From positions 1 to 21,934 of the IMG/VR virus record IMGVR_UViG_3300017958_003458: a DNA stretch of 21,934 nt; one strand, written 5' to 3'. Position numbers and translations under genes: made by a program. Position 1 is the first letter of the stretch, and each line of letters opens with the position of its first letter. The notes beneath the pieces were generated by a model. The model ran no database searches. It saw nothing but the letters and a program-made list of their open reading frames with translations, and had not been told where the DNA came from. Positions 5,884 through 21,934 of the stretch are shown here, piece by piece. This DNA comes from a virus.

Positions 5884-6119
5884 TGAGCAAAGACAATAAA
5901 AATAAATACGAAGGCGAAACCTTTCAGAGGGTTATAAAAGAAACCATGGTTGCTAACAGTGTTCCCAACATGATGTCTAAGCTTATTGAAGACTTTGATG
6001 AAAAACATCGTCAACAAACACTTGACAAAGTCAAAGGGTTATCAAGCGTAGTCGACCGGTTAAAATACTTATTAGAAAAAGTAAAAGAGGAGACAGTCGA
6101 TGACAAAGAAGACGAGTGA
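5883..6119 (+). CDS. Small helical tail-associated protein, unidentified
   Basis: This is a 78-residue charged protein, rich in Lys, Glu and Asp, predicted by eye to be almost wholly helical. The C-terminal half (LSSVVDRLKYLLEKVKEE) has heptad-like hydrophobic spacing compatible with a short coiled coil. It starts one base inside the tape-measure stop (TAATG) and its own end overlaps the next gene by 20 bases, so translation is probably coupled on both sides. Its place between the tape measure and a baseplate-type gene suggests a structural or assembly role, such as a chaperone or small baseplate subunit. I do not recognise the family. Confidence 0.7.
   Translation: MSKDNKNKYEGETFQRVIKETMVANSVPNMMSKLIEDFDEKHRQQTLDKVKGLSSVVDRLKYLLEKVKEETVDDKEDE
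6086..6092 (+). promoter_or_regulatory. Ribosome binding site for the 1125-residue structural gene
   Basis: AGAGGAG lies 7 bases before the ATG at 6100, inside the 3' end of the preceding gene. It supports this start even though the start overlaps the upstream reading frame by 20 bases. Confidence 0.6.
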
Positions 6120-9100: not shown

Positions 9101-9477
9101 TTCGATCATTTGAAAGCACAAGAGGTAGAGGCTTGGCCGGTTTTATTACAGGGCTAACATTTGACTGGGCAGAGTCTACGTGGGAAATCACAAAAGGACG
9201 TAGAGCACCAAAAATGGTAAAGCTTTCAGTATCCTTCGCACCGGTACATGATCTTCATATGGGTCTTGATCATCACGGAATGATGACATCTGTTCCATTC
9301 AATGTAGGAAAATTCTCCGGCATTGTTGGAGGTGATCCATATCTTGATGATCAACTTCTTGTATCAGAAAACCATCCTTCTAGTGAAATTGCTGCAAAAG
9401 CAGAAGGCAAATCATTAGAAAAAGGCAGCGGCAAAAAGAATAAAGCAGTTGAAGCAGCTAAGAAAGCAAAGCCTTAA
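6100..9477 (+). CDS. Large baseplate/tail structural protein
   Basis: 1125 residues. The first 320 or so are polar, rich in Gly, Ser, Asp, Lys and Pro, and probably disordered. A single strongly hydrophobic segment at about residues 331-355 is followed by a Pro/Lys-rich turn. A folded region at about 640-785 contains ISFDFTVAATSEADLDVMYW (MYW at 710-712) and a later MIRVRLGDML. A second conserved-looking block at about 1002-1055 contains RSFESTRGRGLAGFI and RAPKMVKLSVSFAPVHD. These blocks recall baseplate proteins of marine T4-related phages, from memory of the family rather than a search. Its position between the tape measure and the LysM and hub genes fits a baseplate or tail-completion part, comparable in place to the gpU/gp43 genes of P2 and Mu. 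The C-terminal tail is Lys/Ala-rich. It is much longer than usual equivalents. Confidence 0.65.
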   Translation: MTKKTSDTQSDIKETPQKLYNPRYESTGDDITGNVVIGNHDISKTSKATLGDFLSRVTKGEAGSAKKPNAFAVDPDLVDMRLTDPSTGLPANQTNPQKGKGDSKKLKTAGTTLGSFIDTVDDDAKAKFDNLSTGDFNNAEGIASLANKDDKNSQKFGHTVYSDIEPVQPTGTNLGAPPTYAPAGSEVQKKISAVLTSNRFNPSPQTPFMQDNSALSLGYTKQTELGKYTQNQPTVKIDDISKVGHQMVVAGTGHDADLESMLVAGVLPTLEQITGLKMVDTQGLRPRSMPAASSVAEDKGELVKGESDNKSYGHLHSPIEPYAEALPVGSFINTVAGIVALSLATVVISQLIDLLKPSDSGTPRTPVNPDKPHTLQKGKHMTKGQKTGDMIWTMLGVPAVQFDFSECVYLGILSFYGIKELPSGGDLDLNSLLESAQTVAGSPGYYGAITRSVIRDVDQIVQATSNIPFGPDALLQIFNIVEALTSSATWKFLMQMAKLGNQIRSGIDGLKSLGNPQDVDGMLESPNTRISKSRAKPVPGGAKYPGSKLESRLAWRHSASPSRYILPDSFKNALISAKRGKSSSSLSELYFANGGKPAKEDIDGGGNLNSFNKSLTSGDTPGRLSNEYVEFIENALEAEYMPFYFHDLRTNEIISFHAFLGAYSDGFSTDYTSTSGYGRSDDVKIYNKTTRSISFDFTVAATSEADLDVMYWNINKIVSMCYPQWSRGRQMINGDDDKFIQPFSQIPTASPMIRVRLGDMLKSNYSKFGLQRLFGLGNSDTEFNIDKKTDTDAAAKKQQLEAQKKAQEEAIEIFNMKQMSVAGLVQAGSNLDDLGYAEGDLVLLNSNPTKYWPRTADGKMGSEQSPEVGPEAIEGRLHQYSQNVEVEVIKRVPAPNNEPTGFGAAAAALLGDDPPAWDGKGMMTYLVKIKEGSPAHMSLGNIKSEYLHHRAEHGEIVGLSEKGKQKIIDELAAKHMKGDPPSQEGEERFRNFFDPDKNFIVRSFESTRGRGLAGFITGLTFDWAESTWEITKGRRAPKMVKLSVSFAPVHDLHMGLDHHGMMTSVPFNVGKFSGIVGGDPYLDDQLLVSENHPSSEIAAKAEGKSLEKGSGKKNKAVEAAKKAKP

Positions 9478-9493
9478 ATAAAAGAGAGCAGAC

Positions 9494-9790
9494 ATGACAA
9501 TTAGCAGGTATTCTAGAACTAATCGATTGCTCGGCGGTGTTCAACTAGGAACATCACGTGCACATTCAATTATTCACTTAGGTGTACAAAATGGTACAAT
9601 TGATTATAAAACTGTTATAGTAGAAGAAGGTCAAAGGCTGGATCATATTGCTGCAAGAGAGCTTGGTGATGGTCGACTTTGGTGGGTTATCGCTGCAGCT
9701 TCAAGAATTGGTTGGTGGATGCAGGTACCACCAGGTACAGTTTTAAGAGTTCCTACAGATATATCGCAGATTAAGGCATATGTTGGATGA
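9494..9790 (+). CDS. LysM-domain baseplate protein (T4 gp53 / P2 gpX type)
   Basis: 98 residues. The region at about residues 38-88 fits a LysM fold: an opening strand (YKTVIVEEGQRLDHIA), a helix ending GDGRLWWVIAAAS, and a closing PPGTVLRVP. The paired Trp residues and the closing PPGT motif are typical of phage LysM proteins that sit in the baseplate wedge (T4 gp53) or tail tip (P2 gpX). Here the domain more likely serves assembly than cell-wall digestion, as no hydrolase domain is attached. A weak purine-rich site (AGAGAG, near 9483) precedes the ATG. The stop overlaps the hub start as ATGA, so translation is probably coupled. Confidence 0.8.
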   Translation: MTISRYSRTNRLLGGVQLGTSRAHSIIHLGVQNGTIDYKTVIVEEGQRLDHIAARELGDGRLWWVIAAASRIGWWMQVPPGTVLRVPTDISQIKAYVG

Positions 9791-12700
9791 AAGATCGCAA
9801 GATTGATAAAATTACAAATCAGCTAGCTTCCTATTTTGGAACAATTACCAAGGCTGCATTTGTTGCTGAAATGATTGATCCAACTTACGATCCAACCTCA
9901 GACTTTTTTACGCCACCAACACCCAATCCAGAACATAAAGCTGCCAATGCATTGCTGGACATAACGGAAGGTGGCAAGACAATGTCAGAGTTTTTGCTCG
10001 GGTTGTCTGATTACACTAAGCCTAAAGACGGCGAAGAAGTTGACGTGGATTCCGTTAAGATGGGAATGGCAGAAACTTTTACGGTAACATTTGAGCCTGA
10101 GTTTGACGAAGGTGGCAAAAACTGGATTATGAATGGAAGTCCAAAAAATAAACAGCAAGGACATCCTACACCAAGCAAAACATTTTCCATTAAAAAAATG
10201 TTAGGAGTTCAAGGAGAAGGAGAGGGCACAACGATCAATGGAAAAACTAGTGATCCGGACAGATCGACATCTCCAAACCTATCATGTGTTCAAATTTGGC
10301 CAGTTAGGTTCGGGCCAGGAACCCAAGACACATCAGCACTATCGCTTTTTTTAAACGCTGTTCCTACATTAGAGTTTAGTAGATGTGTTCCATTTATAGA
10401 CGTCGTAGCAATTACAAATTCACCTCAGCTTTCAAATGTAGACAACGAGGGTGGAAGAGTTTCCACTATGAGCTTAGCACAATTCTTAATGGGTGCTGAC
10501 AAAGTAAAGTTTGGAGACGCGAGCGGTCAAATCGCATCTGCACTAGACGCTGATGTTTTTACAGAGTTTCAAAATAAACCACCCAAAGAATCGACTGACG
10601 AGAAAGCAGGTTCTGAAACACCACCACCTAATATACCTCCAATTGCAACAGCTGGGATGGAAATGTTCACATCTCCTCAAACACTAGTTCCAGGAAATGA
10701 TCCGTATTTTGAGGCAGATTCGGATCAGTTTAGAAGGCAGAATCTTTTGACAGGAGAGACAGAGGAGTCTACAATGTCGCCAGGAGGACGTAGAGCTGCT
10801 CCTGTAATTGACAGATTTAGACCGTTTATGTCGCTCATGTCCTTGAACTTTAATGTCGCTCCAGGCGGCGGAATGTTTGCATTTAAAACAGCTAGCCTTA
10901 AACTGGTCCTACACGATAGATCTAGGTTAGCAGAAATTCAGCCTTTCATAAAGCCTGACGCATTTGGAAATTCTCATCTTTTAATAGAATATGGGTGGGC
11001 ACATCCTGAATATAAGGTTCACTCTGAAATTGCCGACAGAGAAAAATATCTGATGGGTCACTTTTTAGGTGCGCTTCGCTGTAAAGAGAAGTACAGAGTA
11101 ATTAATACATCTTACAATTTTGACGACGTGGGTCAAGTTGAGATTGATATCAAGTTGTCCATGATGGGTGCCAACTCTATTCATCAAGTTAAGATTGGTA
11201 TGGGTGGTGCTGTTGAAGAATCTGTCAAGGTAATGGAAAAGTTAACCAAGGCAGTTTCTGAAATACTCAGAAAATCTGGAGGCAGCGGGATGGCAGCTGA
11301 CGCAGGTGGAGAAGACTTTTTAACAGCATCTTCTTCTACAAGCGGCGCCATGTCAATGAAAAAAGAGACTCAAGAAAAAATTGCAAAGTTTATTTCTAGA
11401 AACTCAAAAGCTCCGGAGGGAAGTCCTCTCAAAGATCTAGCTTCTAAAATGACTGAGCTTTATGGCAAAAACGGAAAAGGCGGTGCAGCCAAAAAAGCAC
11501 AAGACACTGTAGCTAATGAAGTTAAGAGAAAAGTTTCTCTCCTTAAAAAGACAGATGATCCGTGGTTTGTTGGGTATGATTGCAAAGATAATACAATCAA
11601 GGCTCCTAAGTTTGTTTCCCTAGGAAAGGTCATAATGACATTTCTAGGTCTTCCAATTGCAGCAACAAAACAGTATGATGACATACAGTTTATATTTTAC
11701 TCAATTAACGACAAGGCCAGTTATGTGCACGGAATGAATCTTGCATGTTTTCCGATTGATGCTGATGATTTTGAATTAATGTTTAAAGAAGAAACCAAAA
11801 ACGATCCAAACTTAAGTGTAGGACGTTTCATGGGATTCATTAACGGAAACTTTCTTGCTGATCAAGGAAATCCTGCGTATGGCATGACCAAAATATACGG
11901 AGAAAGAGACAAGGACGACCTAAAGAAAAGAAAGATGAATGCCAAATTTAAGGACGCATCACCTTCTGAAATTGCAATGGCACAAAATGAAGTACTTAAG
12001 CATGCATATGGAAATGGCGATGCTTCTGATTTAGAATTTAAAATGCCAAGAATAAAAGTTCAGATCGAATGTGTCCCGGCAGCTCCTCCAACCGAAAGTA
12101 CAGGTGCTAGTTCTGGTGAAGCTCCAAAAGCTAAAAATATTCTAAGGATACATCTTTACGATGCACAAGCTACAAAATATGCTGCAATAGGAAAAATGTT
12201 GTCTGCAATGCAAGGAAATGCTACGGGTCAGATAACAGGACTGGCAGGAAAAATTAAACACGGAAACACGGGCCCGAGTGCATCAGAAGCTGCTGAAGCT
12301 GCAAAGAATGGAGAAGAAATCGATCTTAAAAGCTCTAGAGACCAAGCTTATAAAGAATTTACTGCTCTGATTCAAAAAGCAATGGATTCAAATATGCTTG
12401 AGCCTATTCCAAAGATTGCAGGAGCCAAAGTAGAGTCTGAAGGTGCTGAGTCTGTTAAGGTTGAAGAATTTGCAAAGCCTAGATTTAGAATTAAAGGAGG
12501 CTTTCCGGCACTGAAGAACTTTATAGCATCAAATATGCCGTCAGTTAGATACGGCTCTTTAGGCTCCGGAATTATGAGTGCAAATCTTTCAAGTATGCAA
12601 AATCCTCAATTAGCTACAGTCAACATGCTAAGAGCAGGTCAATCCGGTGCGACTGACCCGCAAGGTCACCGAGATGCTGGAGTTCCACTAAGAGTTGCAC

Positions 12701-12963
12701 CTATGGAGCTAAACATTGAAACAATGGGCTGTCCTTTGTGGAGATTCGGTCAGCAAATATTCATTGACTTTGGAACTGGAACAACTGCAGACAATGTATA
12801 TGCTGTTACAGGTATTGATCATTCAATTGCCTCAGGTGAATTTAAGTCTAACGTCAAGTTTGTTCAACTCAACACATTTGGTAAGTTTATTGCGATGACA
12901 GACAGGGTCGAAGAGGCACTTAACGTCATTGCGGACGAAAAAGAAGAAGACTCCAGCAGCTAG
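9787..12963 (+). CDS. Baseplate hub protein (gp27/gpD-like), enlarged
   Basis: 1058 residues. The first 330 residues are mostly polar. A hub-type domain begins near residue 339; its marks are VLHDRSRLAEIQPFIKPDAF followed by LLIEYGWAHPE (EYGW at 401-404), a pattern I associate with hub proteins of marine T4-related phages. A long middle section (about 470-960) contains Lys/Glu-rich linkers and a folded part near 595-790. The C-terminal block at 980-1012 (MGCPLWRFGQQIFIDF, then TGTTADNVYAVTGI) is typical of the same family. The gene follows the LysM gene, as in P2-, Mu- and T4-type baseplates. T4 gp27 is about 390 residues, so this version carries large additions. No lysozyme or peptidase motif is visible. 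The family call is from recognition, not a search. Confidence 0.7.
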   Translation: MKDRKIDKITNQLASYFGTITKAAFVAEMIDPTYDPTSDFFTPPTPNPEHKAANALLDITEGGKTMSEFLLGLSDYTKPKDGEEVDVDSVKMGMAETFTVTFEPEFDEGGKNWIMNGSPKNKQQGHPTPSKTFSIKKMLGVQGEGEGTTINGKTSDPDRSTSPNLSCVQIWPVRFGPGTQDTSALSLFLNAVPTLEFSRCVPFIDVVAITNSPQLSNVDNEGGRVSTMSLAQFLMGADKVKFGDASGQIASALDADVFTEFQNKPPKESTDEKAGSETPPPNIPPIATAGMEMFTSPQTLVPGNDPYFEADSDQFRRQNLLTGETEESTMSPGGRRAAPVIDRFRPFMSLMSLNFNVAPGGGMFAFKTASLKLVLHDRSRLAEIQPFIKPDAFGNSHLLIEYGWAHPEYKVHSEIADREKYLMGHFLGALRCKEKYRVINTSYNFDDVGQVEIDIKLSMMGANSIHQVKIGMGGAVEESVKVMEKLTKAVSEILRKSGGSGMAADAGGEDFLTASSSTSGAMSMKKETQEKIAKFISRNSKAPEGSPLKDLASKMTELYGKNGKGGAAKKAQDTVANEVKRKVSLLKKTDDPWFVGYDCKDNTIKAPKFVSLGKVIMTFLGLPIAATKQYDDIQFIFYSINDKASYVHGMNLACFPIDADDFELMFKEETKNDPNLSVGRFMGFINGNFLADQGNPAYGMTKIYGERDKDDLKKRKMNAKFKDASPSEIAMAQNEVLKHAYGNGDASDLEFKMPRIKVQIECVPAAPPTESTGASSGEAPKAKNILRIHLYDAQATKYAAIGKMLSAMQGNATGQITGLAGKIKHGNTGPSASEAAEAAKNGEEIDLKSSRDQAYKEFTALIQKAMDSNMLEPIPKIAGAKVESEGAESVKVEEFAKPRFRIKGGFPALKNFIASNMPSVRYGSLGSGIMSANLSSMQNPQLATVNMLRAGQSGATDPQGHRDAGVPLRVAPMELNIETMGCPLWRFGQQIFIDFGTGTTADNVYAVTGIDHSIASGEFKSNVKFVQLNTFGKFIAMTDRVEEALNVIADEKEEDSSS

Positions 12964-12981
12964 ACTGTACAAATTTACATG

Positions 12982-13003
12982 TGCATTTACAATGTAACAT
13001 GCA
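12982..13003. repeat. Inverted repeat at the tail-replication gene junction
   Basis: TGCATTTACA and TGTAACATGCA pair around one central A, with one unpaired C at 12998. If transcribed, it can form a short AT-rich hairpin with an opened loop. It starts 19 bases after the hub stop and covers two candidate start codons of the polymerase gene. There is no T-run, so an intrinsic terminator is unlikely. Confidence 0.4.
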
Positions 13004-14204
13004 AATACTGTTCAACAAAAATTCTATTGGTATGGAACGACATCTTTTGATGGGTGATAATTGCATACAGTGGTATGACAATTTTGTTGACAATGTCTGG
13101 ACTTTTGGATTTCACGACGCACCTCTTTCGGTCGAAACTCTAAGAGAAGTTCAATTTGAAGAACCTCTGAAAATGATTCCGGAGTCTCATGTAAAGACAT
13201 TTACAGAGCTTTATCCTGATGGGTATGACTTTCAGATACCTTGGAGATGGATTCTGGGTGAAAAGAAATATACAGACTTACTACAGAATGTTGCAGAGAA
13301 CGCGAAATTAAGCATCTGTGCTTTGGAAGCATCTGGATACCATAAAACATACAAAAAAATAAGAAAGTTTCTTACAGAGCTTCGTAGACCTATTGTCGAT
13401 GTTGATAAACTCGCAAAATATATACATCAAAACGATAAAGGCATGACTGTTGAAACGTCTTTGAGGTCATTTGCTCCAATTGAATCTTTGGCGCCTTCTA
13501 TAAAATACGACTTGGTAGGCACTGCAACAGGAAGATTGACAGTCAAGAAAGGACCAAAAATTTTAACGTTGCCTGCTAGATACAGAGATATCATTAAAGC
13601 CGAAGACGGATGTGATATTGTCCAGATTGACTTGGTGTCTGCAGAACCTAGAACTGCGTTATATGTTTCAGGAAATACAGCAGAAGGTGATGTATATAAT
13701 CAGATCTCCAAAGATCTAGGATTTGACTTTCCAAGAGACGTAATTAAGGTTGCAAGTCTATCAGCATTGTATGGAGCAGGTCTAAACAGCTTAACAAATC
13801 TTTTAGGAAGCAAATTTAAAGCTAAAAGAGTTGTGGATAATTTAAAGTCACACTTTAAAGTAAATCAAGTCACAACAAAGCTGGCGCAGGAAATGAAGGA
13901 ACGTGGTTATATTACAAATTTATTTGGAAGACGTCTAGCAACAAGAACTGACGAAATACAGAAAGTATATAGTCACTTTATGCAATCAACAACATCTGAT
14001 GCTGCATTAAGTATGTTTTCTGACTTTTGTAAAAGTGCACTAGATGTTGACAGTAATTTCAAGTCATTTTATGTAATTCATGATGCTTTAGTGTGTCAAG
14101 TTTCAAAGTCTAAAAGACAAGAACTTCAATCAATGTCCAGAATTCTACATTTAGATGACGTTGGCGATTATGAAACGAAAATGACTTCTGTAAATGATAA
14201 TTAA
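12999..14204 (+). CDS. Family A DNA polymerase, polymerase domain only
   Basis: Replicative DNA polymerase of the Pol I/T7 family, 401 residues from ATG 12999. Visible elements are TATGRLTVKKGP; motif A, IDLVSAEPR, with metal ligand Asp211; motif B, RDVIKVASLSALYG, with Arg246, Lys250 and Tyr258 and with Leu254 at the E. coli Phe762 position; and motif C, VIHDALV, with His361-Asp362. The roughly 150 residues before TATGR can hold only the thumb, so there is no 3'-5' or 5'-3' nuclease domain. T7 polymerase has about 700 residues and Klenow about 600. The start is uncertain: GTG 12981 and ATGs at 13032 and 13050 are in frame, and none has a convincing ribosome site. The FEN-type nuclease at 17690 could supply 5' nuclease activity. 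A separate proofreading exonuclease, as described for Rhodothermus phage RM378, is expected elsewhere. Confidence 0.85.
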   Translation: MQILFNKNSIGMERHLLMGDNCIQWYDNFVDNVWTFGFHDAPLSVETLREVQFEEPLKMIPESHVKTFTELYPDGYDFQIPWRWILGEKKYTDLLQNVAENAKLSICALEASGYHKTYKKIRKFLTELRRPIVDVDKLAKYIHQNDKGMTVETSLRSFAPIESLAPSIKYDLVGTATGRLTVKKGPKILTLPARYRDIIKAEDGCDIVQIDLVSAEPRTALYVSGNTAEGDVYNQISKDLGFDFPRDVIKVASLSALYGAGLNSLTNLLGSKFKAKRVVDNLKSHFKVNQVTTKLAQEMKERGYITNLFGRRLATRTDEIQKVYSHFMQSTTSDAALSMFSDFCKSALDVDSNFKSFYVIHDALVCQVSKSKRQELQSMSRILHLDDVGDYETKMTSVNDN

Positions 14205-14212
14205 AAGGGTAT

Positions 14213-14218
14213 CGAGGA
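14213..14218 (+). promoter_or_regulatory. Ribosome binding site for the 171-residue gene
   Basis: GAGGAG, 7 bases before ATG 14226 in the 21-base gap after the polymerase stop. It fixes that start with good confidence. Confidence 0.6.
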
Positions 14219-14225
14219 GCTAGCC

Positions 14226-14741
14226 ATGAACAGCATTAAAGATTTTCTTCGAAGAGAAGTAGCTAAATTAATCTTGGAAGAAAAAGAGAAAAGCGAACCT
14301 AAGAAAGAACCGACAAAAAAGAAAGATTCTGGTCCTGTTAAAAAAGGTAAAGTTGGTCGGGGTGGAATTAAAAAGAAAATTAAAGAGGCAGGTGCTCTTG
14401 CCAGCGAAAACCCTAAAGAGCTGATGAAGCGCCTAGGTGTATCTGGTCCGGCAGGAGGCGCAAATGATTTTGATAAAGTCGTTAGTCTTATAAGATCAGC
14501 AATATTTGGCAACGAAATAATGTCAGCTGCATATGGAGGAGCAAAGATCATAAGTCTTCCTATGAAAGAGGAGACTGTGCGTGCTGTTGAAGTTACTACT
14601 CGAAAAATAAGCCCACGTGACGGTGCTCTTTATATGTTACACACTCTTACAGGTGCTCATAATGCAGGTTTTTTGCAAGGATTGGAAAAACAACTTGAGG
14701 TTAGTATTGAGCAAGGCAGAATTGTAGTATTGTTTGACTAG
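14226..14741 (+). CDS. Unidentified basic phage protein, 171 residues
   Basis: I do not recognise the family. The N-terminus (NSIKDFLRREVAKLILEEKE) is an amphipathic helix. Residues about 20-60 are very rich in Lys, Glu, Pro and Gly and look disordered. From about residue 75 the protein appears folded, with alternating hydrophobic and polar stretches (DKVVSLIRSAIFG, then GALYMLHTLTGAHNAGFLQG) and an end at VVLFD. There are no cysteines and no catalytic motif I can name. A strong ribosome site sits upstream. Its position between the polymerase and an HD-like gene gives little help; a DNA-binding or virion role for the basic segment is possible but unsupported. Its N-terminal helix resembles that of the small protein at 15363. 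Confidence 0.7.
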   Translation: MNSIKDFLRREVAKLILEEKEKSEPKKEPTKKKDSGPVKKGKVGRGGIKKKIKEAGALASENPKELMKRLGVSGPAGGANDFDKVVSLIRSAIFGNEIMSAAYGGAKIISLPMKEETVRAVEVTTRKISPRDGALYMLHTLTGAHNAGFLQGLEKQLEVSIEQGRIVVLFD

Positions 14742-14768
14742 AATACAATACAAAATGTTACCTCTGTG

Positions 14769-14774
14769 TATAAT
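14769..14774 (+). promoter_or_regulatory. Isolated -10-like TATAAT box
   Basis: A consensus TATAAT lies in the 53-base gap before the HD-like gene. The only good -35 match upstream (TTGACT at 14734-14739) is 29 bases away, which is too far, and no better hexamer is at 16-18 bases. It may be a promoter used with an activator, or chance in AT-rich DNA. Confidence 0.2.
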
Positions 14775-14784
14775 TTGATAGATT

Positions 14785-14789
14785 GGAGG
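14785..14789 (+). promoter_or_regulatory. Ribosome binding site for the HD-like gene
   Basis: GGAGG, 5 bases before ATG 14795. It is among the strongest such sites in the window and fixes the start. Confidence 0.6.
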
Positions 14790-14794
14790 TATAA

Positions 14795-15352
14795 ATGAGC
14801 ACACCTGATTTTGAAACCATAAAAAATAACTGGGAAACATTTGAAAGGCTTTGTAAAAAGCTTGAAGACGAAGGCGTTAATAACCTTTTGGAAGCTCTAG
14901 GAGAAAGGTTAGTAACAGCTCCTGCAGCAACACACGACTCTTCACCAGGTTGTTTTCCAGGTGGACTAATCCAAAATAGTTTAGAGACAACGTCAAAGCT
15001 TAAGAAAGCAGCTAATCTATTTGACAATCTAAACACAACATCACTTTTAAAAGTAGGTCTACTTCACGAGATAGGTAAAGTAGGTGATTTGTCCAACAAT
15101 CTTTTTGTTGATCAAGAGTCGGACTGGCATCGTGAAAAGCTAGGTCAGAACTACAAGTACAACGAAGTCATACCCAAAGCTACAGTGCACGACAGAACAT
15201 TAATGATTTTGCAGCACTTTGGAGTCAAGCTTACACATGACGAGTTTATGGCTATTCGTCTCTCACAAGGCTCACACCTCGAGGAAAATAAGTTTTATGT
15301 AGGATCAGAGCCTGATCTAGCTGTAGCACTTCAAATTGCAAAAAGGGTGTGA
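14795..15352 (+). CDS. HD-domain phosphohydrolase-like protein with degraded active site
   Basis: 185 residues. The layout matches phage HD-domain proteins: FPGGLIQNSLETT (usual form GGLLEHSL), then LLKVGLLHEIGKVG (usual form LLHDLGK), then VHDRTLMILQHFG (usual form GHGEKS-ILQ), then LTHDEFMAIRLSQG (usual form AIRWHMG), and a final helix ending LQIAKRV (usual form ADRL). Compared with that pattern, the first metal His is Asn61, the HD pair is His91-Glu92, a His is kept at 132, the later His is Ser157 and the final Asp is Lys183. Most ligands are therefore missing and metal-dependent phosphohydrolase activity seems unlikely. The frame is intact and the hydrophobic core is conserved, so this is probably a working binding or regulatory protein rather than a decayed gene. 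The alignment was made by eye. Confidence 0.65.
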   Translation: MSTPDFETIKNNWETFERLCKKLEDEGVNNLLEALGERLVTAPAATHDSSPGCFPGGLIQNSLETTSKLKKAANLFDNLNTTSLLKVGLLHEIGKVGDLSNNLFVDQESDWHREKLGQNYKYNEVIPKATVHDRTLMILQHFGVKLTHDEFMAIRLSQGSHLEENKFYVGSEPDLAVALQIAKRV

Positions 15353-15362
15353 CGTCATATTT

Positions 15363-15599
15363 ATGTTTATGCGTAATTTTGACTTATTAAGAGAATACAT
15401 CTACCGACTAATTGAAGCCTCTAAAGAAAAGCCTGACTTGCTTGTCGAGCCAGACAAGACTAAGGGCCGCGATGAGGAAGAAGAAGAGGTAGATGAGTTT
15501 TCTGCTGCAGGTGCTGTTGCCGGTGCTATAACACCTATGGGAACAGACTCCTCATATCCAAAAAAGACCCGCAGCAAGTCTAAAAAATCACGAAAATAA
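15363..15599 (+). CDS. Small charged protein with conserved-looking Gly/Ala motif, unidentified
   Basis: 78 residues from ATG 15363, or 76 from ATG 15369; the two cannot be separated because no clear ribosome site precedes either. An in-frame TTG at 15336 would overlap the HD-like gene and is less likely. The N-terminus (RNFDLLREYIYRLIEASKEK) is an amphipathic helix like that of the 171-residue protein. A run of Glu follows, then VDEFSAAGAVAGAITPMG, a motif that looks conserved and that I have an impression of seeing in other marine phage proteins. The C-terminus is Lys/Arg/Ser-rich. The function is unknown. It is the last gene before the gap that precedes the gp32 gene. Confidence 0.6.
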   Translation: MFMRNFDLLREYIYRLIEASKEKPDLLVEPDKTKGRDEEEEEVDEFSAAGAVAGAITPMGTDSSYPKKTRSKSKKSRK

Positions 15600-15618
15600 A
15601 TTACTGAATATTGAACAA

Positions 15619-15644
15619 TTGACTAGTCTAGCCTAGACTATAAC
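15619..15644 (+). promoter_or_regulatory. Candidate promoter upstream of the gp32-like gene
   Basis: TTGACT (15619-15624) and TATAAC (15639-15644) resemble sigma-70 -35 and -10 hexamers but are only 14 bases apart. TTGAAC at 15611-15616 would give 22. Neither spacing is ideal, so this is tentative. It lies in the longest intergenic gap of the window, ahead of a gene expected to be strongly expressed. Confidence 0.3.
15624..15640. repeat. Perfect 17-bp palindrome, operator-like
   Basis: TAGTCTAG, a central C, then CTAGACTA: eight perfectly paired positions on each side. It fills the space between the two promoter-like hexamers in the gap before the gp32-like gene and shares a base or two with each. 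It could be an operator for a dimeric repressor or, in RNA, a 6-bp hairpin with a 5-base loop in the leader. No T-run follows, so it is not an obvious terminator. Confidence 0.55.
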
Positions 15645-15671
15645 AGGCAATAAAAGTTGACTATTGCAAAT

Positions 15672-15678
15672 TAAGGAG
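15672..15678 (+). promoter_or_regulatory. Ribosome binding site for the gp32-like gene
   Basis: TAAGGAG, 8 bases before ATG 15687. It is a near-consensus site in an AT-rich, open leader, fitting a gene needed in large amounts. Confidence 0.65.
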
Positions 15679-15686
15679 ATAATATA

Positions 15687-16487
15687 ATGGCAATTGATTT
15701 TGATGCAATTCGTCGAAAGCTAAACAAGCTTTCTGGACAAAATTCCCGACAAAACGTAACGTGGCGTCCTCAAGAAGGTGAAGAACATTCAGTTCGTCTT
15801 CTTTCATTCCCAGATAATGACGGGCAACCTTTTAAAGAGCTTTGGTTTTACTATAACATCGGCAATAACCCAGGTCTCTTGGCACCGTATCAGTTTCAAA
15901 AGGCTGATCCTATTCAGGAGTTAATCACTAAGCTGCGAGATGATGGTTCAAAGGAATCATACGAGTTGGCAAAAAAGCTTTACCCAAAGATGCGTTGCTA
16001 TGCACCTGTAGTTGTTCGCGGTGAGGAAGATAAGGGTGTTCGTATCTGGTCTTTTGGAAAGACGGTGTACCAGTCACTCCTCAATATTATGCTTGACGAG
16101 GATTATGGAGACATCACAGATCCAACTGAAGGACGTGATGTGAAGGTTGTTTGCACAAAAGCACCAGGACGTCAATGGGCAACCACTGAGGTTCGACCCC
16201 GCGGCAAGCAGTCCGTCTTGAGTGAAAATAGTGACACGGTTAACACGTTTCTCACTTCAATTCCTGATCTAGATGACATGTTTACATGCAAGTCATACGA
16301 AGAGCTAGAAAAGATTGTCAATGATTGGCTAAATGACGATGGTACTGATGATGTTGGGTCTACACGTGGATTTGAAAGCTCTTCAAGCTCATCACAGACA
16401 CAAGAAACTTCATCAACTAGCGGATCATCACAAGGTCAAAAGTACAAGTCACTTGATGAAGCTTTTGCTGACCTAGAAGATCTATAG
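15687..16487 (+). CDS. Single-stranded DNA-binding protein, gp32-like
   Basis: 266 residues. It coats single-stranded DNA at forks and recombination intermediates. The layout matches T4 gp32: a basic N-terminal segment for cooperative binding (residues 1-27, with IRRKLNKLSGQ); a core with aromatic and basic positions such as FKELWFYYNIG (49-59) and GVRIWSFGKTVY (117-128); then a Ser/Thr/Gln-rich linker (230-250) and an acidic tail (YKSLDEAFADLEDL) that in T4 binds partner proteins. The T4 zinc site (one His, three Cys) is absent: the only cysteines are 104, 156 and 201, far apart. All 14 arginines use CGN codons, while the tail genes use many AGA, which suggests high expression. UvsX follows 22 bases later. 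Confidence 0.88.
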   Translation: MAIDFDAIRRKLNKLSGQNSRQNVTWRPQEGEEHSVRLLSFPDNDGQPFKELWFYYNIGNNPGLLAPYQFQKADPIQELITKLRDDGSKESYELAKKLYPKMRCYAPVVVRGEEDKGVRIWSFGKTVYQSLLNIMLDEDYGDITDPTEGRDVKVVCTKAPGRQWATTEVRPRGKQSVLSENSDTVNTFLTSIPDLDDMFTCKSYEELEKIVNDWLNDDGTDDVGSTRGFESSSSSSQTQETSSTSGSSQGQKYKSLDEAFADLEDL

Positions 16488-16509
16488 ACAATAACAGCGA
16501 GGACCAAAG

Positions 16510-17688
16510 ATGGCAAAACGAAAGTACCCTGATCAAGATGGGTTTACCAATGAACTCATCGAATCACTAAACAAGGAACATGGCAATAAGATTGCTTACA
16601 ATCTTGCCTATGACGATTCGCCTACACACGTGAATCGATGGATATCAACAGGCTCAAAGCAGCTTGACTATATCATTGCAAATCGTGCGGATGGCGGGTT
16701 ACCTGAGGGTCGTATCGTTGAAATCTTTGGTCCTCCGTCTATTGGCAAGTCACATATCGCAATTCAGATTGCAAGATCTACTCAGCAAATGGGAGGTATT
16801 GTTGTCTATATTGATACCGAAAATGCAACAAGCGTTGAAAATCTTTCTTTGCTAGGTGTTGATATTAGTAAAAGATTTGTCTATGTTGATACACACTGCA
16901 CAGAAGAAGTTCTTGCTATTGCTGAATCTACTATTATGAGAGCTAAGGCAATGGATAAGGATGTCCCTATCACAATCATATGGGACTCTGTTGCAGCTAC
17001 CTCTCCCAAGGCAGAGCTTATTGGTGATTATGACAAAGATTCCATAGGTCTTCAGGCGCGCGCTATTTCTAAAGGGATGCGCAAAATTACAGGAATTATT
17101 GCAAATCAAAATGTGTTAATGATTTGTCTGAATCAGATTCGAACCAAAATTGGTGTTATGTATGGAGATCCAACTACAACACCGGGTGGCAAAGCAATAC
17201 CTTTTCACTCGTCTGTCCGAATCAAGTTAGGTGCAGGACAGCAAATCACAAACAAGGATAAAGAAGTAATTGGAATCAATGTTTCTGCCAAGACAATCAA
17301 GAACAAAGTTGCTCCTCCTTTTAGAACAGTAAATTTTGAAATCCACTTTGGTGTAGGAATTAAAGAGCATGAGCAAATGTTTGACTTGCTAAGAAAACAT
17401 GGCAAGACAGAAACTGACACTAAGATTATTGAAATGTCTGGCGCTGGTGCGTGGAAAAAGCTCACAGTGTTTAGTCGCGACACAGGCGAAGTTCTAGTAG
17501 AAAAGAAATTCTATAAAGCAGACTTCGGTGATATCATTAGCGACCCTGGGTATTCTGAATACGTTGAAGCAATGCTTAATGATGCACTAGTTCGAAAGTC
17601 AGCACAAGAAATTGATCTAGAATCATATGAAGAAGTTAGGGCAGCTGCTCTAGAAATTGAAGACGAACTAATCAATCCTGAGGGATAA
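16510..17688 (+). CDS. uvsX: UvsX/RecA-family recombinase
   Basis: 392 residues, close to T4 UvsX (about 390). It forms ATP-dependent filaments on single-stranded DNA and drives strand exchange and recombination-dependent replication. Walker A is GPPSIGKS at residues 74-81. Walker B ends with Asp159 in ITIIWDSVAA. The expected loop regions follow: DSIGLQARAISKGMRKI near 178-194, NQIRTKIGVMYGDPTTTPGG near 212-231, and SVRIKLGAGQQI after that. A Gly-rich adenine-side motif precedes Walker A (DGGLPEGRIVEIFG). The ribosome site CGAGGA lies 6 bases before the ATG. The gp32-like partner is directly upstream, matching the functional pairing in T4. The stop is one base before the next start. Confidence 0.92.
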   Translation: MAKRKYPDQDGFTNELIESLNKEHGNKIAYNLAYDDSPTHVNRWISTGSKQLDYIIANRADGGLPEGRIVEIFGPPSIGKSHIAIQIARSTQQMGGIVVYIDTENATSVENLSLLGVDISKRFVYVDTHCTEEVLAIAESTIMRAKAMDKDVPITIIWDSVAATSPKAELIGDYDKDSIGLQARAISKGMRKITGIIANQNVLMICLNQIRTKIGVMYGDPTTTPGGKAIPFHSSVRIKLGAGQQITNKDKEVIGINVSAKTIKNKVAPPFRTVNFEIHFGVGIKEHEQMFDLLRKHGKTETDTKIIEMSGAGAWKKLTVFSRDTGEVLVEKKFYKADFGDIISDPGYSEYVEAMLNDALVRKSAQEIDLESYEEVRAAALEIEDELINPEG

Positions 17689-17689
17689 T

Positions 17690-18640
17690 ATGCTTGATAA
17701 ACCTGTTCTTATAGTAGACGGGTTGAACTTTTTTACTAGACACTTTGTTGTAAATCCTACAATGAGCCAAAACGGAGAACATCTGGGAGGGTTTGTAGGG
17801 TTTCTCAAAGGTTTACGCCTTCTAAGTGAAAGGTGCAATCCAGAGCAAATTGTAGTTGTTTGGGAAGGCGGCGGATCAATGAGACGTCGCGCAATTATGC
17901 CTAACTACAAACAAGGAAGACGACCTCAAAAATTAAATCGTTACTATGAGGATGACATACCTGACACTTATGCAAATAGAAATAAGCAGATAGCTTTATT
18001 GATTGAGTCATTAAAAAGTGTACCAATCAGGCAGATGTATGTGTCAGACTGTGAAGCAGATGACGTCATTGCATACATGACAAAGTATCACTATCGTGAC
18101 AAAAAGTGTGTTGTAGTTTCTTCAGATAAGGACTTGTATCAATTGATAGATGACCGCGTAACGCAATGGTCACCAGGTCAAAAAAAATACATAACAGAGA
18201 AAAAGGTTTTAGAAAAATTCGGTGTAAGTGTTTCTAACTTTGTTACCGCAAGGGCATTTATTGGAGATCCATCTGACGGAATAAAAGGTGTTTCTCACGC
18301 AGGATTTAAGTCTTTGTCCAAAAGATTTCCCGAGCTAGCTGAAAGCAAACATGTTACAGTTTCAGATGTAATTGAAGGTGCACATAGTCTTGCAGAAACA
18401 AAAAAGCTGAAAATATTGGATTCGATTATCGAAGAAGGAAATGTTGCCCTAAGCAACTGGAAATTGATGTATCTGGATATCAAAAACCTTTCAGGACAAC
18501 AAATTGAAAAAATTAAAAATTCTCTTGATTCTTTTGAGCCTGTGCGTAATAAAATATCACTGATGAGAATTTTGATGAGAGAAGGCGTCAATAATTTTGA
18601 CGTTGATTCGTTTTATATGTCAATTAAAAACTGCAAATAG
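17690..18640 (+). CDS. FEN-family 5'-3' exonuclease / RNase H (T4 Rnh type)
   Basis: 316 residues, near T4 RNase H (305). It probably removes RNA primers and 5' flaps on the lagging strand, which matters because the polymerase here has no 5' nuclease domain. Acidic metal-site residues are Asp10 (LIVDGLNFF), Glu59 (VVVWEGGG, where Asp is usual), the cluster Asp120, Glu122, Asp124, Asp125 (SDCEADDVIAYM), Asp146 and Asp148 (SSDKDLYQL), and Asp193 and Asp196 (GDPSDGIKGV). The last lies in the helix-three-turn-helix DNA-binding part, whose continuation SHAGFKSLSKRFP is less Gly-rich than usual. A basic arch patch (MRRRAIMPNYKQGRR, about 64-78) is present. GAGGGA just inside the end of uvsX is the likely ribosome site, so the two are probably co-translated. 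Confidence 0.88.
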   Translation: MLDKPVLIVDGLNFFTRHFVVNPTMSQNGEHLGGFVGFLKGLRLLSERCNPEQIVVVWEGGGSMRRRAIMPNYKQGRRPQKLNRYYEDDIPDTYANRNKQIALLIESLKSVPIRQMYVSDCEADDVIAYMTKYHYRDKKCVVVSSDKDLYQLIDDRVTQWSPGQKKYITEKKVLEKFGVSVSNFVTARAFIGDPSDGIKGVSHAGFKSLSKRFPELAESKHVTVSDVIEGAHSLAETKKLKILDSIIEEGNVALSNWKLMYLDIKNLSGQQIEKIKNSLDSFEPVRNKISLMRILMREGVNNFDVDSFYMSIKNCK

Positions 18641-18652
18641 GAAAACAGCAGG

Positions 18653-20038
18653 ATGGAAAGAAATATTGTAGAACACCCAGGTTTATTTTCCCAGTACGGA
18701 AAACAGTTTCAAGAAACAGTCTTTCAGGGGTTAATATCAGACCATGCATGGGCAGCACAGATGACTGAAGTGATGAGTCCGGACTATTTTGAAGTAAAGG
18801 CTCTAAGCTATCTTGCTGAAAAATATTTTGCGTATCACAAAAAATATAAGTGCTTTCCAACCCTAGGGCTGCTTGTTTCTATTATAAAAGAAGAACTTAC
18901 GGAAACAAACGATACAATTCTAAGAGATCAAGTTGTTGACTTTTTACACAGAACAAAGGTTAGTCCTAACGTATCTGATCTTCACTATGTTAAAGATAAG
19001 TCACTTGATTTTTGCAAGAGGCAAGCATTCAAAGATGCCTTGGAACAAGCAGTTGAATTAATTTCTACAGATAAATTTGATAGTGTCGTTACACTAATGA
19101 AAAATGCAGTTTCTGTGGGAATGCCACATTCTACTGGACACGACTTCTTTGAAGATCTCGAATCTAGGTTTGTTAAGACTCGAAGGCTTGTGTGTCCAAC
19201 AGGCTTACCTCGTCTAGACGCAAAAGATATTTTGCAAGGCGGATTAGGGAGAGGTGAAATTGGCGTTGTTACTGCAAACACCGGTGTGGGTAAGTCACAT
19301 TGGCTAGTCGCCATGGGTGCTAATGCATTAAGGGCAGGAAAAAATGTTGTCCATTATACCTTTGAATTGACTGAACATGCGGTTGGTTTGAGGTACGATT
19401 CTAACTTTTGTGATATGCCGAGTAATGAAATTCCTGACAATAAAGATTTTGTAATTGAAAAATATAAGGAACTTGAGCTCGGCAGGCTCATTATTAAAGA
19501 ATACCCAACAGGTTCTGCATCTGTTATTACAATTAGAAATCACATCGAAAAGCTGGCCCTCAAAGGGTTTGTTCCAAGCTTAATTGTTATTGATTATGCA
19601 GATGTAATGAGATCTACCAGGAGCTACGATTCATTGAGACATGAGTTAAAATTAATTTATGAAGAGCTCAGAAATCTTTCAATGGATATGAATGTTCCAA
19701 TATGGACAGCATCTCAGGCTAATAGAGATTCAGCAAAATCCGATATCGTTGGACTTGAAAATATGTCAGAGGCATATGGAAAAGCAATGGTAGCAGACGT
19801 TGTATTGTCTCTTTCTAGAAAGCCAATGGAAAAAGCAACAGGATCTGGTAGACTTTTTGTTGCAAAAAATAGAGCAGGTAAAGATGGTCTCGTTTTTCCT
19901 GTACACATTGACACGGCAAAGTCTACTATAAAGATACTAGATGAAAGTCATATGACTTTAAGTGAAGCAGTTAAACAAGACGAAACAAGCATGAAAACTT
20001 TGTTAAAGCAAAAATGGTCAGAAGTGAGTGGAGCATGA
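18653..20038 (+). CDS. Replicative DNA helicase, DnaB/T4 gp41 type
   Basis: 461 residues, similar to DnaB and T4 gp41 (about 470). It would form a ring-shaped 5'-3' helicase on the lagging strand. The N-terminal helical domain (about 1-165) ends in a linker, and the RecA-like motor follows. Walker A is TANTGVGKSH at residues 207-216. HYTFELTEH (about 238) holds the catalytic Glu. Walker B is LIVIDYADV, with Asp314. SQANRDS (Gln355) is the sensor motif, and KNRAGKDG (Arg407) is the finger of the neighbouring subunit. The gene starts 12 bases after the nuclease stop; AGGAAA at 18639-18644 is the probable ribosome site. The stop overlaps the reductase start (ATGA). No primase is fused or adjacent, so one is expected elsewhere. 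The middle of the motor is typical, with no intein or insertion. Confidence 0.92.
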   Translation: MERNIVEHPGLFSQYGKQFQETVFQGLISDHAWAAQMTEVMSPDYFEVKALSYLAEKYFAYHKKYKCFPTLGLLVSIIKEELTETNDTILRDQVVDFLHRTKVSPNVSDLHYVKDKSLDFCKRQAFKDALEQAVELISTDKFDSVVTLMKNAVSVGMPHSTGHDFFEDLESRFVKTRRLVCPTGLPRLDAKDILQGGLGRGEIGVVTANTGVGKSHWLVAMGANALRAGKNVVHYTFELTEHAVGLRYDSNFCDMPSNEIPDNKDFVIEKYKELELGRLIIKEYPTGSASVITIRNHIEKLALKGFVPSLIVIDYADVMRSTRSYDSLRHELKLIYEELRNLSMDMNVPIWTASQANRDSAKSDIVGLENMSEAYGKAMVADVVLSLSRKPMEKATGSGRLFVAKNRAGKDGLVFPVHIDTAKSTIKILDESHMTLSEAVKQDETSMKTLLKQKWSEVSGA

Positions 20039-21934
20039 ACAAAACAATAAACTACAACGAAGCATTTGAAAAGTGCGTCAAGTATTTCAACGGAGATGAC
20101 TTGGCAGCTAACGTATTTCTAACAAAATACGCCTTGACTGATACAAGTGGAAATCTGCAAGAGGAAACACCTGACGACATGCATCGTCGTTTGGCAGCAG
20201 AGTTTGCACAGATCGAGCAAAAATATCCTAATCCAATGAGTGAGGATGAAATTTATGATCTATTTGCGAACTTCAAGTATGTTGTGCCGCAAGGATCACC
20301 AATGTCAGGTATTGGGAACCCACATCAGATTCAATCTATCTCTAATTGCTTCGTTATTGAGTCACCTCACGATTCGTATGGTGGCATCTTAAAAACTGAT
20401 CAGGAGCTTGTTCAGATTGCAAAGCGTCGAGGTGGCGTCGGATTTGACATTTCCACCATACGCCCTAAAGGATTGTCTACTGGAAACTGTGCTAGAACCA
20501 CTGACGGCATCGAAGTATTTATGGACAGGTTTTCAAATTCTTGTCGCGAAGTTGCACAAGGAGGGCGTCGAGGTGCACTGATGATTACAATATCAGTAGC
20601 TCACCCGCAAGTTCAAGATTTTATTCGAATTAAGCGAAATTTGACAAGAGTTACAGGCGCAAATATTTCAGTCAGGCTTAATGATGAGTTTATGACTGCA
20701 GTTCAGGAGGGAAGTGATTATACACTACGATGGCCGGTAGACTCTGACGATCCTGCAGTGACTAAAACTGTTAATGCACAAGAACTTTGGCATGAAATTA
20801 TTGAGTCTGCACATGCTTGTGCAGAGCCTGGCCTTTTGTTTTGGGATACTGCAAAGTCTCAAACACCGTCTGATCTCTATGAAAAAGAAGGTTTTGGTTC
20901 TGTAAGTACTAATCCATGCGGTGAAATTATTCTTAGCCCATATGACTCATGCAGACTTATGCTCGTTAATCTTAAAAGTTTTGTTACAGAAGCATTTACA
21001 TCAGAGGCAAAGTTTAATTTTGATCATATGGCTGAAGTTGTCCAAAAAGCTCAGCGCCTAATGGATGATATGATTGATATTGAAATTGGACAAGTTGACA
21101 AGATACTTGCAAAAATTGATTCTGATCCAGAGCCAGAATCAGTTAAGCAAATTGAAAAAGATATGTGGACTCGAATAAAAGAGCAAGCACAACAAGGCCG
21201 TCGAACAGGTTTAGGAGTTACTGCTATTGGTGATGCTCTGGCTGCCCTAGGAATTCGTTACGGAAGTGAAGAGTCCATTCAAACAGTTGAAAAGATTTAT
21301 CAGTGTTTGACAGTCAACGCCTACAAGTCTTCTGCAATTATGGCGTCAGAACGTGGTTCGTTTCCTGTTTATGACGCACAAAGAGAAGCAGATCATGAAT
21401 ATCTCCAGCGCGTTATTACATCAGATGATGAGCTTCAGACGTTGCATGGTCAGCATGGTCGACGAAATATTGCCTTGACAACCACAGCACCCGCAGGTTC
21501 AGTATCTGTTCTTACACAGACTACGTCTGGTATCGAACCTGCATTTCTTCTAAAATATATGCGTCGTAAAAAAATTAACACAGATGCAGAGCCAAATGCA
21601 AGAGTTGATTTTGTAGATGACGTAGGAGACGCATGGCAAGAATATCCTGTGTATCATCATGCTTTCAAAGAATGGATGAACACATCTGGCTTGGAAGACG
21701 AAGCAATGTCTCCATACTGGAAAGCAACTGCAAATGAAATTGTCTGGACACAAAAAGTAAAGCTTCAGGCAGCTGCACAAAAATGGATATGTCATGCGAT
21801 ATCTAATACAACAAATCTTCCGGAAGATACAGACGTTGAAACCGTCAAAGATGTCTACATGACAGGTTGGCAATTAGGTTGTAAGGGTGTAACTGTTTAT
21901 CGCGATGGTTGCCGCTCAGGTGTTCTTGTAAGCG
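20035..21934 (+). CDS. nrdJ: Ribonucleotide reductase, class II (adenosylcobalamin-dependent), 3' end outside window
   Basis: The first 633 codons are present and the frame is open to the window end. The enzyme reduces ribonucleotides to deoxyribonucleotides for phage replication, using a B12-generated thiyl radical. Evidence includes SNCFVIESPHDSYGG (Cys105 of the redox pair), AKRRGGVGFDISTIRPKG, NPCGEIILSPYDSCRLMLVN (Asn293, Cys295 and Glu297 of the active site), TAPAGSVSVLTQTTSGIEPA, and near the end ISNTTNLPED followed by GCKGVTVYRDG. The sequence between these, and the lack of any NrdB neighbour, favour class II over class I. No ATP-cone domain is visible at the N-terminus. The C-terminal redox cysteines would lie outside the window. 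The ATG overlaps the helicase stop, tying nucleotide supply to the replication operon. Activity would depend on cobalamin from the host. Confidence 0.88.
   Translation, partial: MNKTINYNEAFEKCVKYFNGDDLAANVFLTKYALTDTSGNLQEETPDDMHRRLAAEFAQIEQKYPNPMSEDEIYDLFANFKYVVPQGSPMSGIGNPHQIQSISNCFVIESPHDSYGGILKTDQELVQIAKRRGGVGFDISTIRPKGLSTGNCARTTDGIEVFMDRFSNSCREVAQGGRRGALMITISVAHPQVQDFIRIKRNLTRVTGANISVRLNDEFMTAVQEGSDYTLRWPVDSDDPAVTKTVNAQELWHEIIESAHACAEPGLLFWDTAKSQTPSDLYEKEGFGSVSTNPCGEIILSPYDSCRLMLVNLKSFVTEAFTSEAKFNFDHMAEVVQKAQRLMDDMIDIEIGQVDKILAKIDSDPEPESVKQIEKDMWTRIKEQAQQGRRTGLGVTAIGDALAALGIRYGSEESIQTVEKIYQCLTVNAYKSSAIMASERGSFPVYDAQREADHEYLQRVITSDDELQTLHGQHGRRNIALTTTAPAGSVSVLTQTTSGIEPAFLLKYMRRKKINTDAEPNARVDFVDDVGDAWQEYPVYHHAFKEWMNTSGLEDEAMSPYWKATANEIVWTQKVKLQAAAQKWICHAISNTTNLPEDTDVETVKDVYMTGWQLGCKGVTVYRDGCRSGVLVS

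Follow-up and report, generated by a model that had tools for sequence, protein, structure and literature searches.

The window, by which we mean the whole stretch of DNA analysed here, comprises the 21,934 bases of an IMG/VR virus record and represents a fragment of a genome. It encodes a DNA polymerase of only 401 residues, which we term mini-PolA, upstream of genes for recombination and replication. Is this protein a genuine family A polymerase? Is a proofreading exonuclease present in the same chain or encoded elsewhere? Does the enzyme copy the phage genome or does it assist another polymerase that does so?

The polymerase core and its active site

The open reading frame spans position 12924 to the stop codon at 14202-14204 and offers two candidate start codons, GTG at 12981 (407 residues) and ATG at 12999 (401 residues). 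The conserved N-terminus of the relatives begins at the residue matching 12999, so the coordinates in the preliminary description of this locus are right. The upstream gene, in the tail region, stops at 12963 and mini-PolA starts 35 bases further on; the early end of that gene leaves no space for an upstream exonuclease domain belonging to the polymerase.

The Pfam family DNA_pol_A (PF00476) matches the protein with an E-value of 1.8e-10, and profile-profile comparison with the E. coli and T7 PolA sequences gives E = 6e-21. An AlphaFold2 model, for which the input was an alignment of 56 sequences, has a pLDDT of 95.2 and a pTM of 0.92. The Pol I fold is evident and the top solved structure identified by Foldseek is KlenTaq, the large fragment of Taq Pol I (E = 2.7e-14, probability 1.00, TM-score by query approximately 0.6). 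Taken with Pfam and the profile-profile match, model and fold place the assignment to family A beyond chance. The protein is, as first described, a minimal family A polymerase carrying motifs A, B and C.

IMG/VR was scanned first with alignments of the 5′-nuclease and helicase and then with an alignment of the polymerase. The scan with the polymerase alone gave 410 confirmed related stretches. The alignment used here comprises 114 distinct full or near-full mini-PolA sequences drawn from all scans. The numbering of E. coli PolA was transferred by column-anchored (profile) alignment, used in place of plain MAFFT, which misplaced motif B in divergent members. Residue n of mini-PolA begins at 12999+3(n-1). 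The gene and its key positions are as follows.

12999..14204, + strand: mini-PolA, exonuclease-less family A DNA polymerase of 401 residues (PF00476, AlphaFold2, Foldseek, start of relatives)
13533..13535, + strand: Arg179, equivalent to R668, in a TATGRL motif (column-anchored alignment; Arg in 112/112 relatives with this column)
13629..13646, + strand: motif A core DLVSAE (Asp in 114/114, Glu in 111/114)
13734..13775, + strand: motif B, RDVIKVASLSALYG (R754 is R246, K758 is K250, position 762 is L254, Y766 is Y258)
13983..13988, + strand: Gln329, equivalent to Q849, then Ser330 (Gln in 114/114)
14079..14087, + strand: motif C, His-Asp-Ala (Asp in 114/114; at E883, Ala in 101, Glu in 9 and Ser in 4 of 114)

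The E. coli residues R668, D705, E710, R754, K758, Y766, Q849, H881 and D882 all have an identical counterpart in mini-PolA. Motif A reads QIDLVSAEPRTA, with D705 and E710 represented by D211 and E216. D705, K758, Y766, Q849 and D882 are invariant in the 114 distinct relatives, and E710, R754 and H881 are retained in 111. Motif C is VIHDAL; H361 and D362 correspond to H881 and D882, and Ala363 occupies the position of E883. The window protein therefore displays HDA and lacks HDE, a feature on which the preliminary description was silent. Scored on residue 883 alone, the relatives divide into 101 with HDA, nine with HDE and four with HDS. Of the three carboxylates in the Klenow fragment E883 is the one that matters least, and for that reason HDA need not imply an inactive enzyme. 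Activity may be lowered in the majority of members that have alanine here.

Close pairs of mini-PolA genes give pS values of 0.51-0.58 against pN values of 0.08-0.09 (0.58 and 0.086 for the pair L090-L092), a dN/dS of approximately 0.08-0.1. Purifying selection is strong. Catalytic residues that are nearly invariant and a dN/dS of about 0.1 suggest that mini-PolA is maintained as an accessory enzyme and is probably active. In G074 (14883-15760) stop codons interrupt the frame, indicating a pseudogene or an assembly error, and in L116 (3686-4894) the gene is present as two open reading frames of 302 and 100 residues with one stop between, which may reflect an error in sequencing or a gene that is truly disrupted.

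The column-anchored alignment with E. coli PolA confirms leucine at the position of Phe762 (Leu254, codon CTA at 13758-13760). The preliminary description took this residue as a guide to speed, fidelity and phage lifestyle. Among the 114 sequences, though, the position is Leu in 78, Ile in 24, Phe in eight and Met in four, and it has changed at least 16 times on a tree of 95 representatives that was built with column 762 left out. Published Leu762 PolA groups are associated with SNF2, UvrD or RecB helicases, and a ribonucleotide reductase (RNR) is commonly missing (PMC6302109), whereas a DnaB-type helicase and an RNR follow mini-PolA. The virioplankton PolAs that have been synthesised and tested are 564-760 residues in length (PMC6302109, PMC9069017). 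Mini-PolA resembles the virioplankton Leu762 groups as a viral family A enzyme with Leu at 762, and is unlike them in its size of 401 residues and in its linkage to DnaB, gp32, UvsX and RNR. Since residue 762 is so labile, readings of lifestyle or fidelity from Leu762 are unsafe in this group.

Searches of mini-PolA with Pfam, NCBIfam and PHROGs identify polymerase sequence alone, and the DnaQ-like domain that provides Pol I-type proofreading in the same chain is absent, as originally proposed. The median open reading frame among the relatives is 405 residues, the length that a polymerase core has when no exonuclease domain is attached. A vestigial exonuclease at the N-terminus was considered and found no sequence support: the first 134 residues give no exonuclease signal in Pfam even at E<=10, and the hhalign match to PolA begins only at residue 162. 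A split-off exonuclease was also sought in the relatives. No separate gene for a Pol I-type 3′-5′ exonuclease occurs in 13 long relative contigs, and the only match in that search was to the full-length PolA of Flavobacterium phage immuto, described below. An exonuclease of DnaQ/RNase T type is present in three of the 13, distant from the polymerase. Rhodothermus phage RM378, in which the polymerase polypeptide is likewise separate from its exonuclease, had been put forward as the closest precedent. The comparison fails because the RM378 polymerase, p092, belongs to family B (PF00136, 2e-33) and its partner p024 is a PolB-type exonuclease (PF03104), whereas the window protein belongs to family A.

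Gene order around mini-PolA

The following genes were recognised downstream of mini-PolA.

14226..14741, + strand: protein of 171 residues, function unassigned (85 homologous open reading frames in the fetched loci)
14795..15352, + strand: HD-phosphohydrolase-like protein of 185 residues (weak match to PHROG 28876, 0.009; 146 homologous open reading frames)
15687..16487, + strand: gp32-like single-strand DNA-binding protein (PF08804, 9e-10; PHROG 1192, 6e-20)
16510..17688, + strand: UvsX/RecA-like recombinase (PF00154, 4e-65; PHROG 97, 9e-72)
17690..18640, + strand: stand-alone 5′-3′ exonuclease or flap nuclease (PF02739, 4e-30; PHROG 107)
18653..20038, + strand: DnaB/gp41-like replicative helicase (PF03796, 7e-18; PHROG 19, 3e-69)
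20014..21934, + strand: RNR large subunit, truncated where the window stops (PF02867, 9e-94)

The Pfam and PHROG matches confirm the T4-like gp32, UvsX and DnaB/gp41 partners recognised earlier. A complete RNR of 830 residues is encoded on the near-identical contig L002. The protein of 171 residues, which is kept directly behind mini-PolA in many relatives, gives no Pfam, PHROG or NCBIfam match.

Mini-PolA is found in hundreds of contigs from large aquatic phages, beside the same recombination and helicase genes. The module has the order mini-PolA, one to three small genes (often the 171-residue and HD-like proteins), gp32, UvsX, 5′-nuclease, DnaB and RNR. Conservation was assessed in 80 loci kept of the 410, chosen by the polymerase alone, with each neighbour counted only where there is enough downstream DNA. 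On this basis gp32 is present in 68/69, UvsX in 63/63, the 5′-nuclease in 56/56 and DnaB in 48/48; mini-PolA and the 5′-nuclease thus occur together in all 56 informative loci.

Some relatives carry altered versions of these genes. UvsX is split into two open reading frames at least several hundred bases apart in L261, L284, L285, L290, L292 and L322, as if by an intron, an intein or insertion of a homing endonuclease. DnaB and RNR frames that are several hundred residues longer than those of their relatives (L261:10699-13164, L306:17508-20906 and L325:17265-21134) suggest inteins.

A tblastn search with the window protein returned partial matches alone, none covering at least 80% of the query, the best being to Pol I genes of actinobacteriophages. 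We found no published description of the mini-PolA group in the literature searched, which is thin in subscription papers.

Replicases in related phages

Long relative contigs encode a DnaE, the α subunit of DNA polymerase III (family C, PF07733), of approximately 1,200 residues. It is present in 31 of the 32 contigs that extend at least 40 kb downstream of mini-PolA, with three sets contributing 7/8, 15/15 and 9/9. Selection of the second set relied on a ThyX gene that lies close to DnaE, which skews this set towards DnaE; the third was picked by mini-PolA alone. The usual distance from mini-PolA to DnaE is 12-41 kb. Third-set contigs with less than 15 kb downstream show no DnaE (0/6), and the window and its near-identical contigs end too early to show one. 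The exception among the long contigs, G013, has 59 kb downstream and no DnaE match; G010, with a polymerase 86% identical to that of G013, does have a DnaE.

The tree places contig G044 as a close sister to the window. This contig is colinear with window positions 5976-21924, with pieces of 66-78% DNA identity, and its mini-PolA is 52% identical to that of the window over 425 columns. It carries both mini-PolA and a DnaE of 1,213 residues, in which PHP, polymerase, finger and helix-hairpin-helix domains are recognised. The PHP metal-ligand positions that could be located are retained in most of 40 phage DnaEs, so proofreading may sit in the PHP domain of DnaE, an idea drawn by analogy from PMC3919608. 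In G055 and G059 the DnaE gene is present as two open reading frames. The interval from RNR to DnaE contains a gene for an Fpg/Nei-like DNA glycosylase (L331:4628-5422, in G044, and L199:5652-6452), which would fit base-excision repair using mini-PolA.

A family B polymerase was considered as the main replicase of the window's group and rejected, there being no PF00136 match in 13 long IMG/VR contigs. A second PolA is absent from all 24 mini-PolA contigs searched.

Three phages form a divergent branch, and among 50,697 phage records no other clear relatives of this branch were found, with one partial match to a fecal phage. In Flavobacterium phage immuto this module is headed by a PolA of 441 residues (gp001), with Phe at 762, and the phage encodes elsewhere an exonuclease-positive PolA of 777 residues that has Leu at 762 as judged from its motif B. 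By eye the N-terminus of gp001 (L005:1-510) is like a Pol I 3′-5′ exonuclease minus the catalytic residues, with no Pfam support. In Microcystis phage Mel-JY01 the mini-PolA homologue, identified by profile at 50397-51623 (WWT39333.1, annotated as hypothetical), is upstream of the same module genes; an open reading frame at 52405-53691, proposed from position, is not a polymerase. Mel-JY01 also carries a family B polymerase and clamp-loader genes. LR756508 (484 kb) has the module, with mini-PolA near 241 kb, together with a PolB and a DnaE open reading frame of 575 residues. In all three, as in the window, a small PolA occupies the syntenic position ahead of gp32, UvsX, 5′-nuclease and DnaB, and, as in the window's relatives, the phage has another replicase. 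They differ from the window protein in very low identity, 15-19% for the immuto and LR756508 proteins, and E710, R754 and H881 are replaced by His, Tyr and Tyr in immuto and Mel-JY01. The DnaE contigs, the PolB of Mel-JY01 and the exonuclease-positive PolA of immuto show that the syntenic mini-PolA coexists with replicases of three families. Relatives thus do possess a second, full-length replicative polymerase, and the view of mini-PolA as a replicase without proofreading, implicit in the preliminary description, is not sustained.

Assessment of possible roles

We consider it very likely that mini-PolA is an accessory enzyme and not the sole replicase. It would represent the polymerase core of Pol I without either nuclease domain, heading a conserved module, and replication of the phage genome would most likely fall to another polymerase, in this lineage a family C DnaE that brings a PHP domain of its own. 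In the phage from which the window comes, the gene for this replicase would be expected some 12-41 kb downstream of mini-PolA, past the window end. Because related phages carry a full-size polymerase of another type, mini-PolA is most likely a gap-filling helper and not the genome copier, and we favour gap filling in particular with moderate confidence. The neighbourhood suggests the 5′-nuclease as its working partner. The pair may constitute a two-protein Pol I, or split Pol I, in which the nuclease would take off RNA primers or flaps and mini-PolA would fill short gaps at Okazaki fragments, in repair patches and in recombination intermediates on DNA coated with gp32 and UvsX. A lack of proofreading should cost little in such short-gap synthesis. 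Mini-PolA might also extend recombination intermediates with UvsX and gp32.

Comparisons with known systems inform on this proposal. E. coli Pol I, Klenow and KlenTaq have the polymerase core, motifs A, B and C and fold in common with mini-PolA, with approximately 20% identity to bacterial Pol I over the core. The differences are that mini-PolA has no 3′-5′ exonuclease domain, Leu at 762 and HDA in motif C, and that the 5′-nuclease, part of the chain in full bacterial Pol I (PolA1), is a separate gene. Mini-PolA and the adjacent nuclease would cover two Pol I activities, and bacterial Pol I acts beside a family C replicase, as would mini-PolA in the relatives. The nearest cellular parallel is actinobacterial PolA2/APEX, which acts together with a family C replicase; its exonuclease domain is inactivated and it has a clamp-binding motif (PMC12926913). 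Like mini-PolA as proposed here, it belongs to family A, has no working proofreading and assists a family C replicase. PolA2 keeps its inactivated domain, whereas none is recognisable by sequence in mini-PolA, which sits in a phage replication module. DnaE is known as the replicase in marine jumbo phages (PGC_A of PMC9123017, group 3.2 of PMC7824862), which thus encode their own DNA polymerase III α as do the window's relatives; the passages on DnaE in those two papers do not mention an accessory mini-PolA.

The alternative that survives best, though we regard it as rather unlikely, is a polymerase for recombination synthesis that mainly extends UvsX-invaded 3′ ends (D-loops), to start recombination-dependent replication or break repair, and does not serve Okazaki gaps. 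The link to gp32 and UvsX is invariant (63/63), as is that to the 5′-nuclease, and T4-like phages prime replication by recombination (PMC7824862). However, the nuclease and DnaB are linked just as tightly, and gene context therefore does not point to UvsX in particular. Recombination synthesis and gap filling could also be true together.

An error-prone or translesion polymerase of low fidelity, bypassing damage in the manner of PolA2/APEX, is improbable. The missing exonuclease domain, the variable residue 762 and the alanine at E883 would suit such an enzyme, and PolA2 with its inactivated exonuclease likewise works beside a family C replicase (PMC12926913). Set against this, mini-PolA is a compact core in which no extra domain is detected, the fingers residues R754, K758 and Y766 and the steric-gate position E710 are retained, and a fixed link to core replication genes is better suited to routine replication than to an occasional response to damage.

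We judge it very improbable that mini-PolA is the main replicase, slow and accurate by virtue of Leu762, with proofreading either absent or provided by a split-off exonuclease, a reading implied by the preliminary description. The enzyme does head a module with helicase, single-strand binding protein and RNR, and is the sole polymerase visible within the 21.9-kb window, but DnaE is encoded by nearly all relatives with enough sequence, the colinear contig included, immuto and Mel-JY01 carry other replicases, the 13 long contigs lack a Pol I-type exonuclease gene, and residue 762 is labile. Least credible of all is the idea that the protein is catalytically dead, whether as a relic or as a structural subunit. 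Although E883 is lost in most members, and E710, R754 and H881 are changed too in the branch of immuto, Mel-JY01 and LR756508, the conservation of D705, D882 and K758 in 114/114 and the strong purifying selection argue against it, as does the fact that E883 is the carboxylate Klenow can best do without.

Gap filling by a split Pol I, our preferred reading, has wider consequences. Surveys use PolA to track viral replication and read phage lifestyle from its residue 762. The mini-PolA group shows that PolA in a virus can be accessory, with residue 762 drifting, and PolA surveys should therefore set this group apart. Mini-PolAs are also small polymerases that naturally lack an exonuclease, and practical use is possible. 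One module that is found with differing replicases offers a clear test case for how phage replisomes are assembled. We tentatively propose, as an idea somewhat short of an even chance, that these phages belong to a widespread and undescribed group of large phages in which a split Pol I is locked into the gp32-UvsX-DnaB module, and that this module is retained whole whilst the main replicase is exchanged among families A, B and C. If true, such phages would bring with them their own division of labour between a Pol III and a Pol I.
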